Of a stretch of DNA of 64,000 bases, positions 14,795 through 19,113 are shown piece after piece (position 1 is the stretch's first letter; each line of letters begins with the position of its first letter). The stretch is from contig JAUSGG010000007.1 in NCBI GenBank assembly GCA_030649165.1, positions 1-64,000 of the forward strand. The letters are read 5' to 3'. The DNA is from Armatimonadota bacterium (GTDB taxonomy: Bacteria > Armatimonadota > UBA5829 > JAUSEB01). Below the pieces are notes generated by a model. The model worked only from the letters and a program-made list of their open reading frames with translations. It searched no databases and was not told the origin of the DNA. The position numbers and the translations under genes were made by a program.

Positions 14795-15398
14795 GATCCT
14801 CCTCAGCGATTACGCGTGAACCGACACCGACATAGGGGAGGAGATGAGCACGGTGATGGCTCCCGACCTCAGCCATTATATCAGGATTTCCAGGGGATGA
14901 TTCAAGTAACGCAACGGCTCGTGTGAGTTAAGTCTTACGGGAACAGGCAGAGTCAGCGAAAATGGGGACTGACGCTTTTTCGCAGAGCAACCTGTCAATG
15001 CTGCACAAGCCCCGCTGCGAAAATGCCGTCTGTCCCATTTTTTCGCGGTCGAATTTCGCACAACGTCCCGGGGAACCAAACTCTCTCCAGCCAACGCAAC
15101 AGAAGTGAGTTCAGTCTCGCGGCAACACCATTGAGTCAACGTAGCTGGTGCGCCAAATCCCCCTCTCCCCCTTGGGCGGGAGAGCCTTGTCCTGAGCCTG
15201 ACGAAGGGGGTTGGGGTGAGGGGGGCAGGCTTATTTTCGATCCTTCGGTAGCAGAGCGCAGCGCCGCTGCCGAAGTGCACGACCGCCGCAGGTACGTCAT
15301 TCTGAACGCAGTGAGGAATCTGCTTTTAAGCCCGACTGCTGACCGAGGAAAAAGCCTCCGATCCTTTGGTAACAAAGAGCAGCGCCGCTGCCGCGCCA
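14795..15398. other. 600-bp spacer with palindromic repeats
   Basis: No convincing gene. It holds the REP-like inverted repeat (14956-15046), a long CCCTCTCCCCCTTGGGCGGGAG repeat interrupted by CCTGAGCCTGACGAAGG (15162-15230), a CTTCGGTAGCAGAGCG hairpin (15241-15276), a GTCATTCTGAACGCAGTGAGG repeat (15296-15325), and a degenerate second CTTTGGTAACAAAGAGCAGCG copy (15361-15395) reaching the stop of the AbrB-type gene. Confidence 0.65.
14956..15046. repeat. Inverted repeat of RAYT/REP type
   Basis: Left arm 14956-14985 (GCGAAAATGGGGACTGACGC then TTTTTCGCAG) and right arm 15015-15046 (CTGCGAAAATGCCGTC then TGTCCCATTTTTTCGC) are near-perfect complements around a 29-base core. The GGGACAGACG / CGTCTGTCCC core of each arm resembles palindromes that flank REP-associated Y1 tyrosine transposases. 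No transposase is present, so it would be a non-autonomous copy. Confidence 0.6.
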
Positions 15399-15662
15399 TC
15401 AGTCGTACATCGACTCCCGGCGCAGCGCCTCGTCAGGCAGGATGGGCGCCACAGGGCGCGGGCTGTTTGCCCAGTCGAGAAAAGACGCTACCCACTCCTG
15501 CCGACTGGCATTGGCCCAAAACTCTTCGCCCTCAACAGGACGCAGGGTGATCGACTTGCCGTGAAACTCCACAACATAACGAGTGTGCGGATCCACCGAA
15601 CCTATTGTTTTCTGAGGAAGGACGAGATTGCCCTCGTCGTTCACTTCAACCATTTCGCCCAT
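15399..15662 (-). CDS. SpoVT/AbrB-type DNA-binding protein (orphan antitoxin-like)
   Basis: An 87-aa protein whose N-terminal half has the swapped-hairpin pattern: VEVNDEGNLVLPQKTIGSVD followed by TRYVVEFHGKSITLRPV. The AbrB fold binds DNA as a dimer and is common in antitoxins. The C-terminal tail (EEFWANASRQEWVASFLDW and beyond) is the part that would hold a partner toxin. ATG 15662 is preferred because GGAG lies 6 bases upstream; the open frame continues further upstream without an RBS. No PIN or other toxin lies next to it on the same strand, only repeats, so the cognate toxin may have been lost. Confidence 0.65.
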   Translation of the reverse strand: MGEMVEVNDEGNLVLPQKTIGSVDPHTRYVVEFHGKSITLRPVEGEEFWANASRQEWVASFLDWANSPRPVAPILPDEALRRESMYD

Positions 15663-16236
15663 GTGCTTCTCCAAACGCATTCTAGCACGTTTGCCTTTGC
15701 GAGTCCAGAATACGGAGCCATCCGGAGAGCTTGGTCTACACGCCACCGAGCTGTTTCCCCAACTCCTCGACCTCCGGTTTCCGGCGGCCATAACCCATGT
15801 CCGATCCTTCGGTAGCAGAGCGCAGCGGCGCTGCCGAAGCTACCACCGCCGGCGGGCCGTCATTCTGAACGCAGTGAAGAATCTGCTTGCCATCCAGCTC
15901 GACGTAGGCAGAGTCAGCGTTCCATTCAAGAGCCTCCCCGCAAACCTCGTCGGCCTCCGCCTGGAAGACCCCTTCATAATCACGCACGACGGACAGACGG
16001 AGCGGATTATGGATTTGCCGATGGGTGGGCTGGTGAGCCCGGCGGAAGGATTCATTTTGACCATTGGCGAATACACATTCGACAATGCGTCCATCTGTTA
16101 GCAACAGAGATCAACTGGAGGAGCCACGAGCGCCATCAGACACTGGACGCGGGCAAGAAGAGCGTTAGGCGCATTGACGGCAGGTTCGACAGCACATTCC
16201 AGTGCTTCCTCAATGGCTCGCGCCCCTAGGAGCTCT
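15663..16236. other. Spacer with possible gene remnant
   Basis: Contains a CTTCGGTAGCAGAGCG hairpin (15805-15840) fused to a GTCATTCTGAACGCAGTGAAG repeat (15860-15889). Between about 15897 and 16101 on the plus strand an open stretch with GC-rich third positions would encode a 67-residue segment that includes RLEDPFIITHDGQTERIMDL and ends FDNASIC; its upstream part runs straight out of the repeat. It may be the 3-prime remnant of a gene displaced by repeats. The opposite strand is also open, so coding is uncertain. Confidence 0.3.
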
Positions 16237-17100
16237 ATGGGAGAATCTTTTAGACACGCGGTCGGTAAGTCCACGCTCAGAGAGGGGTTCGCTGTTCCCA
16301 AGAACGCGGAGACATGGATCGGCGCACCCGCCGCCAGCTCTAAGCGGCAAATCCGACTTGTCTTTGACGGTCAGGAGGCGCAGGTTACACTTAGAAGACT
16401 TGGAAATGAGCGAGGGCATGTCCAGGTAAAGTACGAGAATAGCGCGGGTGAGCCATTTAGGAATTGGCTGGTTTCCAGGTTTGGCACAGCTCCAGGCCAA
16501 GCGACCGGAGACTACTTTGAATTGACGAACGTAGGAGACGACCGGTTCGAAGTCAAGGCGTTCCCGTATCAAGCTACTCTCTTTCCCAATCTGTTTGTGG
16601 ACGAGTGGTTGTTCCACGCGGGGGCCGATCAGCTGTTCGACGAGGAGAACGCCCTGAACGAGATACCTGCGGTTGTACGAACTGTGCCGTTCGACAAAGA
16701 CGAAGGCCAGAACTATTACAACCGCGCCTTCTCTAACAGTTTTCGGGAATGGGACTGGCAGTTCGAGGGTCGCGTCGTCCCTCAGTTAGGGCTAAAGTTC
16801 GACTTTGCGAAGAACGGCGTTCAGGTCGAGGTGGAGTTCGGAAACGCGCGCACCTACTACCAGGACTACATTAAGTTTCTGCTGGCAAATCGCCAACACT
16901 CGGCACGGGTCGGTGTTCTCATGGTTCCCAGCGAGTCCTTTGCCAAGCACCTGTGCGAGGTTGGCCGACGACGAGCACTCGAGAAAGGCCGGAACTGCTA
17001 CAGTGGCATGATACACTTCGAGAAAGTGCGGCGCGAGTTCCAACACCTTGAGTTTCTTCTCTCGATGCCTATCGCTATCGCTGGCGTAAGCCCAACGTGA
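16237..17100 (+). CDS. BglII-type restriction endonuclease-like protein
   Basis: A 287-aa protein from the preferred start. The C-terminal half contains KFDFAKNGVQVEVEFGNART followed by YYQDYIKFLLANRQ, the typical V-E-V-E-F segment plus helix of the BglII/BamHI-like PD-(D/E)XK nucleases; the ExE pair would bind catalytic Mg2+. The next strand ARVGVLMVPSESFAKHL also fits. The N-terminal part (RQIRLVFDGQEAQVTLRRLG) is a beta-rich domain that I do not recognise. No methyltransferase lies beside it, so either it cleaves modified or foreign DNA or it is a leftover restriction gene. The start is uncertain: ATG 16237 has AGGAG only 4 bases away; ATG 16213 has none. The protein just downstream also looks nuclease-like. 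Confidence 0.65.
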   Translation: MGESFRHAVGKSTLREGFAVPKNAETWIGAPAASSKRQIRLVFDGQEAQVTLRRLGNERGHVQVKYENSAGEPFRNWLVSRFGTAPGQATGDYFELTNVGDDRFEVKAFPYQATLFPNLFVDEWLFHAGADQLFDEENALNEIPAVVRTVPFDKDEGQNYYNRAFSNSFREWDWQFEGRVVPQLGLKFDFAKNGVQVEVEFGNARTYYQDYIKFLLANRQHSARVGVLMVPSESFAKHLCEVGRRRALEKGRNCYSGMIHFEKVRREFQHLEFLLSMPIAIAGVSPT

Positions 17101-17200
17101 TTTTGAAAGCGATTGCAGGTTTCCCGAAACAATATATGGTGTCGCATTGGTGACTTCGAAGCGGAATGGCGGATAGTTTCGGTAAGAGGGAGGAGTATTC

Positions 17201-17845
17201 TTGATAAGTGTAAGGGAGAGAATCCTTGATTACGTTCGGCTGCACCCAGAAGGTATGACCGATAGCCAGATCACAAAGGGTTTGGCTATTCGCTACGTGC
17301 CGCAGACCAACAGTCGGTGTCGCGAACTCGAAACAGCGGGACTGATTGAGCGGCGCGTGGTGAACGGCAAAATCCATAACTTTCCCATGGACGGGGAACC
17401 CATTGAGCCGGATGCGCCTGACCAAGACGCACAGACGGAGCCAGCGGGCAGGGAGTGGTTCTGGGAAGGAAACGTACAGGAACGCGTTGCTGCCTATCTG
17501 AAGGCGCAGGGCTATACCATCGACCGGTGCGCCGATTGCGCGTCAAGGGAACGGGGCCGGGACATAGAGGCGAGGGATGGGGCGGGGCCGCTTTGGGTAA
17601 CCGTGAAAGGATACGCGCGTAAGACCGAAAGCACACATCCTTCTACTCAGGCTGGGCATTACTTCAAGGACGCCCTGTTCGATATGATAGCCTGGCGCGG
17701 CGAAAATGCGGACGTTCGCTTGGCTTTCGCGCTGCCGGATTTTCAGCGATATCGAGCACTGGCGCAGAAGGTCGCATGGCTTCTCCCGTCCGCGCGATTC
17801 TCATTCATTTGGGTGCAGCACGACGGGACTTGCGGGACGCGGTGA
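17201..17845 (+). CDS. Winged-helix plus PD-(D/E)XK-like protein
   Basis: A 214-aa two-domain protein. Residues 1-60 form a winged helix (ILDYVRLHPEGMTDSQITKGL, recognition helix near TNSRCRELETAGLIERR). After a proline/aspartate linker, residues 85-210 resemble restriction-endonuclease-like folds: ERVAAYLKAQGYTIDR, GRDIEARD, then LWVTVKGYARKT, a D-x(n)-[T/S]-x-K variant of the catalytic core, and a helix QAGHYFKDALFDMIAWR. Nuclease activity or DNA binding is inferred; the usual acidic residue before Lys is Thr here. The start is TTG at 17201 with GGAGG 6 bases upstream. It follows the BglII-like gene by 100 bp on the same strand and probably belongs to the same islet. Confidence 0.6.
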   Translation: MISVRERILDYVRLHPEGMTDSQITKGLAIRYVPQTNSRCRELETAGLIERRVVNGKIHNFPMDGEPIEPDAPDQDAQTEPAGREWFWEGNVQERVAAYLKAQGYTIDRCADCASRERGRDIEARDGAGPLWVTVKGYARKTESTHPSTQAGHYFKDALFDMIAWRGENADVRLAFALPDFQRYRALAQKVAWLLPSARFSFIWVQHDGTCGTR

Positions 17846-17899
17846 CAACATGACGTTCGTCGTTTCGCGAAGCCCTCTTCCCGAACCTCCGGACTGCAT

Positions 17900-18667
17900 C
17901 TACGCAGCCAGTTCCTCCCGCACATCCTCACGTCTGCTCCACGGTACAGGTCTGACTTCATAGCTTCGCAGAGCGTTGATAATCGCAGGGGAAACCTCGT
18001 GCTCCGTGTCGTTCAGCAGAGCGTAGAACCGGGAGTCAGGGGGCCGGACGTCTCTTGTATCGAGCCAGGAGAGGATCGTGGACTGCGCTGCGTCGCGATT
18101 TGGATGCGTGATCGTCTTTAGCAGTCGTTCCGGCTGTGTTCGGGATTTGGGAATGCCAAAGTCAAAGACGTAGTCGTAGCCGCTCTTGCCCGTGAACTTC
18201 ACCTTGGGCATATACCTGACTTCGTTAAGATCCAGCCAGCTTACCACGTCTTCGTAAAATAGGCTCGCCACTATCGGCTGAGCCAGATAGAACATGTCGT
18301 TGACCGACAGCATGGCCTGCACGAGATTGTGCTTACGAAAGGCGAAGCCATCGGGCGCCGAATGCACCTGCAGAGCGCCATCGACCATCTGCACGCCATA
18401 GCCGTTGAGTACCGTCTTCAGCAACTCCTGCCGTTTAGGGGAGTCCAATGGGCACCCGGAAGTCTCCAGATCATCCAGGATGTAACCGTCGTCGGTCAGA
18501 ATGTAGCCCCCATTTTCCCTTCGCGCGTAAATCTGGAGACAATCGTTGTGCCGGTCCAGGTACGGCGTGGTGATCTCCACCCAATCCCCATCAACCTGCC
18601 GCAGCTTAGTCTTGTCCCTGAGCCATCTCACATAGCTATCGAGTAGCTCCTGAATGTCGTTGATCAT
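17900..18667 (-). CDS. DUF1828/DUF1829-like protein
   Basis: A 255-aa protein with the appearance of the DUF1828 family: N-terminal helix [17 protein letters not shown], strands [20 protein letters not shown] and [16 protein letters not shown], helix [17 protein letters not shown], then a DUF1829-like C-terminal half ([26 protein letters not shown]). Family function is unknown to me. It is coupled to the upstream gene by an ATGA overlap (18664-18667). It lies tail-to-tail with the wHTH/nuclease-like gene. The setting between nuclease genes suggests an anti-phage or addiction role, which is inference. Confidence 0.65.
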
Positions 18668-19113
18668 ATGAACAGCACCTTGTTAATGACCGGAGGTTCC
18701 GTTATGTTGCAGAATCGCATAAAGTCCGTCAACACCTGCCAGTCGTCAGAGGTATTAGCGAACGCCTCTGACGGCGCAGGATACGCCCATTTATCCCCGT
18801 ACCCTTCTCTGTACAAATGCAAATGTGGACAGTCCACTTCAGTTCCGTCAGGGTTGCGGTGAGGCCCTCCGCCGAAGTCATAACGAGCCAATATGAGCGT
18901 GTGTCGTGCCCTGTTCTGGTACTTGCCCTTTAGCACGATCTTCCCGCTCCGACTCACATCCAAGAGGAAGCTCTCCCGCCTGTCTCGTGAAACCAGTGGC
19001 ACGCAAATCCGGCCCCAAGGCGCCGGGTAGTCCCACGCCTGATCATCGATCTTAGACTTCTCCATCGCAAGTAAAGCATCAGCTTCGGCCTGCGTAACGT
19101 CTACATTGGCCAC
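18664..19113 (-). CDS. DUF6978-like protein
   Basis: A 149-aa protein that starts at GTG 19113 (AAGGA 8 bases upstream) and overlaps the DUF1828-like gene by 4 bases. A central beta-rich part reads [48 protein letters not shown], then [26 protein letters not shown]. The pattern P-H-x-H-x-Y-x-E-G-x-G-x-K-W-A fits the DUF6978 group often found next to DUF1828 genes. That match is from memory and needs a profile search. Histidines and acidic residues in the HLH region could bind metal. Function unknown; the fixed pairing with DUF1828 suggests a two-component module. Confidence 0.6.

Follow-up and report, generated by a model that had tools for sequence, protein, structure and literature searches.

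Several described systems bear on the locus considered here. Feder and Bujnicki included XisH among their PD-(D/E)XK seeds, and it is a recognised member of this nuclease superfamily, within which carboxylate migration is a known route of active-site rebuilding (PMC1189080). Winged helix-turn-helix (wHTH)-type readers fused to nucleases have been described near Dnd modification genes and they provide a precedent for a reader-nuclease (PMC10853773). HipAD/DS-6 is a two-gene system with anti-phage activity, for which its authors propose a toxin-antitoxin-like mode of action, with a HipA kinase and, as its antitoxin-like partner, a DUF3037-DUF1829 chain (PMC13092281). PDC-M24, a pair of protein families in PADLOC, is itself a computational candidate, for which no published mechanism or anti-phage test was found in the literature searched. 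In the present work, we have analysed a 64,000-nucleotide stretch of an Armatimonadota genome (contig JAUSGG010000007.1 of assembly GCA_030649165.1, positions 1 to 64,000; hereafter the window), which contains a 3.7 kb islet of five accessory genes, viz. an AbrB-like gene, a BglII-like nuclease gene, a gene for a wHTH protein with a XisH-like domain (wHTH-XisH), and a DUF6978/DUF1828-DUF1829 pair. Our analyses indicate that this islet is probably a cluster of independent anti-mobile-element units that was assembled by chance, and that its wHTH-XisH gene belongs to a widespread family with a clade-defining change in its catalytic motif.

Both the fold and the conservation of the wHTH-XisH protein are clear from our analyses. 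Its AlphaFold2 (AF2) model, for which 51 sequences of the family served as input (four rows from plasmid hits were left out), has a predicted local distance difference test score (pLDDT) of 93 and consists of a wHTH (elements H4-13, H21-27, H33-45, E49-54, and E57-62, all with pLDDT above 90) followed by an alpha-beta3-alpha-beta core. In Foldseek searches the XisH structures 2inb and 2okf were the first matches of the C-terminal domain (probability 1.00, TM-score on target length 0.54-0.61, E 2e-3) and MarR/MepR proteins were matched by the wing domain (probability 1.00), which also matches the PHROG 2440 transcriptional regulator at 3.6e-5. These results uphold the first-pass annotation, made from the sequence alone, in its description of a winged helix joined to a nuclease-like fold. 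The XisH chains differ from the window protein in being 128-129 residues long and lacking a wHTH, and in carrying Glu where the window protein belongs to a group with Thr or Ser; a profile of the wHTH-XisH family gave no significant sequence match to any solved structure, XisH included. The nuclease half was left unnamed by all four family libraries searched, with a YraN-type model reaching only E 0.067. As modelled, wHTH-XisH is an unnamed family that combines a MarR-like wHTH with a XisH-like PD-(D/E)XK domain. Homologues are present at 74 genome loci, on 14 plasmids, and in 10 of 291 genomes of the window's phylum (the window's own counted), and scans of IMG/VR by peptide pattern revealed no viral relatives. 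The relatives from the window's phylum are scattered among the others in the tree, which points to the spread of these genes by horizontal transfer.

Five residues (viz. Glu89, Gly119, Asp121, Lys136, and Gly137) are invariant in the family according to our conservation analysis, and Gln150 is nearly so. Asp121 and Lys136 of the PD-(D/E)XK motif are thus retained throughout, and across a whole clade the (D/E)xK half-motif has Thr or Ser instead of Glu. Position 134 splits the family tree into a Glu group and a Thr/Ser group along a branch with 100/100 support, and all 38 sequences of the Thr/Ser clade lack Glu134 and have either Thr or Ser, which swap several times within the clade. This clade covers at least nine phyla (viz. 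Chloroflexota, Thermomicrobiota, Bacillota, WWE3, Deinococcota, Planctomycetota, Pseudomonadota, Actinomycetota, and the phylum of the window). The Thr that had been noticed in place of the usual acidic residue before the Lys is Thr134, which precedes Lys136 at a position where Glu is usual; since Thr or Ser occurs there clade-wide, with full support for the clade, random decay of the site is ruled out. Two other positions follow the same division, position 161 being acidic in 97% of the Thr/Ser clade vs. 0% of the Glu group and position 112 in 87% vs. 10%.

We tentatively read these observations as indicating a stand-alone family of DNA-reading nucleases, spread horizontally over at least nine phyla, with a novel form of the PD-(D/E)XK site in which a hydroxyl (Thr/Ser) replaces the Glu and in which Asp161 and Asp112 have been gained. 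Under this reading the gene would be a single-gene nuclease, whose MarR-like wing domain would read the sequence, modification or structure of DNA and whose XisH-like domain would cut it with the site E89-D121-(T/S)134-x-K136-Q150. The hydroxyl would take the place of Glu134 and the acid would probably come from elsewhere, with D112 and D161 as clade-specific candidates; the purpose may be the restriction of incoming DNA. It is rather doubtful that the PD-(D/E)XK domain of the Thr/Ser clade has instead lost catalysis and that the protein is a regulator that binds DNA. Such a role would be consistent with the loss of the half-motif Glu from all 38 sequences and with the annotation of Thermus members as "MarR family transcriptional regulator", the wHTH being the best-known half of the protein. 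However, the Lys and Asp should not persist in an inactive domain, and E89, D121, K136, and Q150 are invariant or nearly so over all of these phyla; moreover, only Thr and Ser are exchanged at position 134, and the acidic residues at positions 161 and 112 arrive alongside them.

The genomic contexts of the wHTH-XisH family are partly of a defence type and partly of a housekeeping type. One homologue is located between the HmaA (1e-196) and HmaB (1e-102) genes of a Hma system and overlaps HmaB (L014), another is found upstream of type I restriction-modification (R-M) genes as read from the sequence (L013), and the homologues on Thermus plasmids adjoin CRISPR type I-U genes. Other homologues have in their vicinity two DndB-like genes (L027), a PDC-S11 protein (L023), SNF2-type genes (L010 and L012) or methylase genes, and in another genome (G088) a BglII-family R-M pair and a MazEF-like pair are present near a nuclease of the wHTH family. 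Housekeeping contexts, again read from the sequence, include positions after asnS-like genes (L022 and L026), in the argG/argH neighbourhood (G037), and after truB/rbfA-like genes (L042). At a threshold of 1e-10, PADLOC matched 268 families over 144 neighbouring proteins vs. 20 over 86 control proteins, these being counts of families, which overlap, and not of proteins, with arbitrarily chosen stretches from one phylum only as controls.

The last two genes of the islet correspond to PDC-M24. Pfam identified DUF1828 (1.4e-26) together with DUF1829 (7.9e-31) in one protein and DUF6978 (1.6e-41) in the other, and PADLOC identified the two as PDC-M24B (5e-104, 254 of 255 model positions) and PDC-M24A (1.5e-54, 142 of 146), respectively. 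Both proteins match their models over the full length and are adjacent in the usual order, and no difference from PDC-M24 was found. The pair had initially been described as DUF6978-DUF1828-like with an ATGA overlap; the overlap (4 bp, 18664-18667) and the DUF6978 assignment are confirmed, and the partner is now amended to a full DUF1828-DUF1829 protein. M24 loci were gathered from the window's phylum (where DUF6978 occurs in 13 of 291 genomes), from IMG/VR (30 loci via M24B), and from phages and plasmids, and removal of near-copies left 34 distinct full-length DUF1828-DUF1829 proteins. DUF6978 adjoins every one of these (31 in the order A-then-B and 3 convergent with an overlap of 4-8 bp), but none of nine DUF1828-only or other-fusion proteins; two partial hits (L105 and L106), which are not counted in the nine, are pieces of full-length genes that adjoin M24A. 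Loci found via DUF6978 are biased to pairs, but those found via M24B alone agree. DUF6978 is thus linked to DUF1829, not to DUF1828, and it forms with DUF1828-DUF1829 an obligate two-gene unit. The three convergent pairs (L145 1510-2750, L149 1254-2460, and L159 4956-6246) have an arrangement unusual for a toxin-antitoxin operon. Proteins of 125-144 amino acids (aa) with DUF1828 only, lacking both DUF1829 and DUF6978, are present on five viral contigs (L150, L151, L156, L157, and L160), and the window's genome (G000) has a second DUF1828 protein (G000:C52:34973-35245; L002 1081-1866) with a different C-terminal half, different neighbours, and no DUF6978.

The pair is found in diverse surroundings. 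In G119 (L116 6978-14127) it separates hsdS from hsdR in a type I R-M operon, overlapping these genes or a few bases from them, and its neighbours in G058 and G055 are type IIG or type II methylase genes. It also occurs in prophage lysogeny modules, with the repressor on one side and the integrase on the other in Lactobacillus prophage Lj965 and Staphylococcus phage 37. Its inseparability in all sampled loci fits a toxin-antitoxin-like unit, as had been proposed for it, and it is an existing PADLOC candidate; the accompanying proposal that it serves as effector of the wHTH protein is unsupported. It resembles type II toxin-antitoxin systems in being a small overlapping two-gene operon, yet the 3 convergent pairs among the 34 are unlike an operon and DUF6978 is not a toxin of known fold. 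The AF2 model of DUF6978 is fair (pLDDT 85) and has no fold relatives in the PDB (best E 0.43) or among the viral models of BFVD, so that a toxin role can only be inferred; a search of these two sets for a known toxin fold likewise gave none, no kinase family was matched in Pfam or PADLOC, and a DUF1828 profile gave no significant sequence match to solved structures. HipAD/DS-6 is alike in having two genes and a second chain with DUF1829, and it differs in that DUF1829 is joined to DUF3037 and the partner is a HipA kinase, where the window has DUF1828 and DUF6978. By analogy with HipAD/DS-6, M24A is most likely the toxic or effector chain and M24B would be the larger partner, which restrains M24A, detects infection, and is coupled to M24A through DUF1829.

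The co-occurrence of these genes across genomes leads us to reject a single module. Only G000 and G272 among the 291 genomes of the phylum contain both the wHTH gene and DUF6978, and in G272 these are on different contigs; a DUF1828 protein of any kind occurs in 3 of 25 genomes with the wHTH gene, and no M24 gene is found in any wHTH locus other than that of the window. Neither the wHTH nor the M24 genes are present near the nearest homologues of the BglII-like gene (in G011 and G238), and of the three genomes whose BglII-like genes have the extra N-terminal domain described below (G000, G011, and G238), only G000 has the other units of the islet. Hence, of the genes that had been thought worth following across genomes, DUF6978 and DUF1828-DUF1829 stay together, and the BglII-like and wHTH genes do not. 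A composite defence module with the wHTH protein as sensor, the pair as executor, and the BglII-like nuclease as helper is for these reasons very improbable and largely refuted. Its attractions are that everything lies within 3.7 kb, that the BglII-like and wHTH genes are on the same strand with 100 bp between them, and that a BglII-family R-M unit is found close to a wHTH-family nuclease in G088 as well; against it, the wHTH gene and the pair share no locus outside the window, the pair is on the opposite strand and convergent to the wHTH gene, and each unit has its own unrelated contexts. The first-pass annotation was thus right that the islet includes unlabelled defence-type genes, but these are separate units, and its scheme of a wHTH sensor with the pair as effector is not supported.

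Several points weigh against our reading of the islet as a set of independent anti-mobile-element units. Many wHTH-XisH loci lie among housekeeping genes without a recognisable defence gene, so that only a minority of contexts speak for a role in defence, and with family counts and one-phylum controls the enrichment of defence genes is supported rather than measured. D112 and D161 are candidates for the relocated acid by their conservation, and the fold of M24A is unlike that of any known toxin. The BglII-family R-M unit of G088, which lacks the N-terminal domain of the window protein, is only ~3 kb from the wHTH-family nuclease.

The BglII-like protein has its nuclease domain at ~16723-17088 and matches Pfam PF09195 (BglII) at 2.6e-9 (37.5 bits vs. 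a gathering threshold of 26); a profile of this protein and five relatives matched BstYI (1.7e-33) and BglII (3.5e-9) in the PDB, in agreement with the original assignment. It contains the VEVEFGN segment noted earlier, and its active site D...EVE shares the pattern D-x8-E-V-(Q/E) with BglII/BstYI. In the alignment, E-V-E is present in the window protein and its nearest homologue and E-V-Q or E-I-Q in shorter relatives. The protein differs from BglII/BstYI in the replacement of BglII Gln95 by Glu, in an extra N-terminal domain of ~145 residues that is common only to the G011 and G238 homologues, and, as had been observed, in having no adjoining methylase. Shorter relatives in G255, G262, and G088 adjoin a methylase, and a search with the methylase accompanying a BglII relative found only distant relatives in the window's genome (best 5.7e-18, 30% identity). 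In the phylum of the genome with the Hma-associated homologue (L014), no N-domain homologues were found, only short nuclease-domain matches; no viral relatives of the protein were detected in IMG/VR scans by peptide pattern and none were found on plasmids or in phages. This nuclease may have lost, or never had, its methylase, and it would be either a remnant or an enzyme acting on modified or otherwise marked DNA.

The two nearest homologues of the BglII-like gene (G011, L112 9374-12263; G238, L113 8730-9895) directly abut truncated radical-SAM genes. In G011 the radical-SAM gene lacks its 5' part and homology starts 6 bases past the BglII stop in the same frame, and in G238 it lacks its 3' part and stops at NVLV ~20 bases before the BglII start. 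A homing origin, in which the BglII-like gene would encode a mobile nuclease with radical-SAM genes as its insertion sites and would have come into the window by transposition, is unlikely. The abutment of both homologues on a truncated gene from a family as rare as this (4 of 201 genomes of the phylum) would be accounted for by homing; however, there are two cases only, in one of which (G238) the contig ends inside the BglII gene, no radical-SAM remnant adjoins the window gene and its genome has no match at E <= 1e-20, and the genes would equally be found together if the nuclease worked in concert with a radical-SAM enzyme that modifies DNA. Elsewhere the radical-SAM gene follows genes for a PbeA-type helicase and a PbeC-type ATPase (L130 1581-7855; L131 6500-10817), and in L131 all three of these genes appear to be fragmented. 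Alphaproteobacterial plasmids contain a conserved cassette of a DGQHR (DndB-like) protein, a radical-SAM protein, and an ATPase (L196 5739-9879, L197 4619-9963, and L198 5719-9954), to which a DEAD/DEAH helicase, a ParB-domain protein, and a PIN-like/ATPase pair are often added; this cassette is possibly a DNA-modification system built on the radical-SAM enzyme.

The first gene of the islet, which had been labelled an orphan AbrB protein, is single-copy in the genome and has no family match above cut-off in Pfam, PADLOC or the other libraries scanned. Its homologues in the phylum (L202 and L205) have the same C-terminal EALRRE(S/N)MY tail and precede an overlapping PIN gene, and on this basis the gene looks like a VapB-type antitoxin; no PIN gene lies beside it, in which it differs from VapBC, and it may be a remnant. 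Its orphan status stands, and the antitoxin is otherwise ordinary. The islet had also been described as flanked by repeats, but these surround the AbrB gene only (15239-15888). One repeat, GTCATTCTGAACGCAGTGARGAATCTG, is found at 15296-15323 and 15859-15886 and at 61 places in G000 overall (30 forward and 31 reverse; a control with the reversed sequence gave 0), and since it is dispersed and surrounds the first gene only, it is ruled out as a border of the islet. Many copies of GTCATTCTGAACGCAGTGARGAATCTG are no more than ~240 bases from the start of a contig, as would be the case if the assembly breaks at the repeat. The orphan antitoxin, the orphan nuclease, and the dispersed repeats around the first gene could suggest that the entire islet is a functionless, decaying residue of earlier acquisitions. 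We consider this improbable, as every open reading frame (ORF) is intact, the pair retains its ATGA coupling and full-length domains, and the wHTH-XisH gene retains all family-invariant residues.

All five ORFs proposed for the islet are confirmed as real, and their likely extents are listed in Table 1. The genome comprises 5.48 Mb in 266 contigs. The islet is bordered by NrdR-/DUF6785-type genes on one side and permease-/WecB-type genes on the other (names from the sequence, except DUF6785), and no recombinase that could mark an island border was recognised among the listed ORFs of the window.

Table 1. Features of the accessory islet and its surroundings (window positions).
Feature	Position	Strand	Remarks
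Dispersed repeat, copy 1	15239..15323	+	not an islet border
AbrB-like gene, putative VapB-type orphan antitoxin	15399..15680	-	93 aa, ATG at 15680; longer in-frame starts exist
Dispersed repeat, copy 2	15803..15886	+	
BglII/BstYI-family endonuclease with extra N-terminal domain	16237..17100	+	287 aa; Pfam PF09195, PDB profile search
wHTH-XisH gene	17201..17845	+	214 aa protein
Predicted winged-helix domain, residues 1-62 of wHTH-XisH	17201..17386	+	AF2, Foldseek, PHROG 2440
Predicted XisH-like PD-(D/E)XK nuclease domain	17456..17842	+	AF2, Foldseek, conservation, tree
Putative active-site codons (first base)	E89 17465, D112 17534, D121 17561, T134 17600, K136 17606, Q150 17648, D161 17681	+	
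DUF1828-DUF1829 protein, PADLOC PDC-M24B	17900..18667	-	255 aa; Pfam, PADLOC
DUF6978 protein, PADLOC PDC-M24A	18664..19113	-	149 aa, GTG start; Pfam, PADLOC

The PDC-M24 pair is an already known candidate, and the part of the islet worth following is the Thr/Ser clade of wHTH-XisH. This is a widespread nuclease-like family whose nuclease domain is unrecognised by four libraries and whose genes are sometimes found beside Hma, type I R-M or CRISPR genes, and the clade-defining change in its catalytic motif represents a directly testable case of the rebuilding of a PD-(D/E)XK active site. The strict linkage of DUF6978 and DUF1829, in turn, provides a concrete two-chain hypothesis for the unexplained PDC-M24 candidate.

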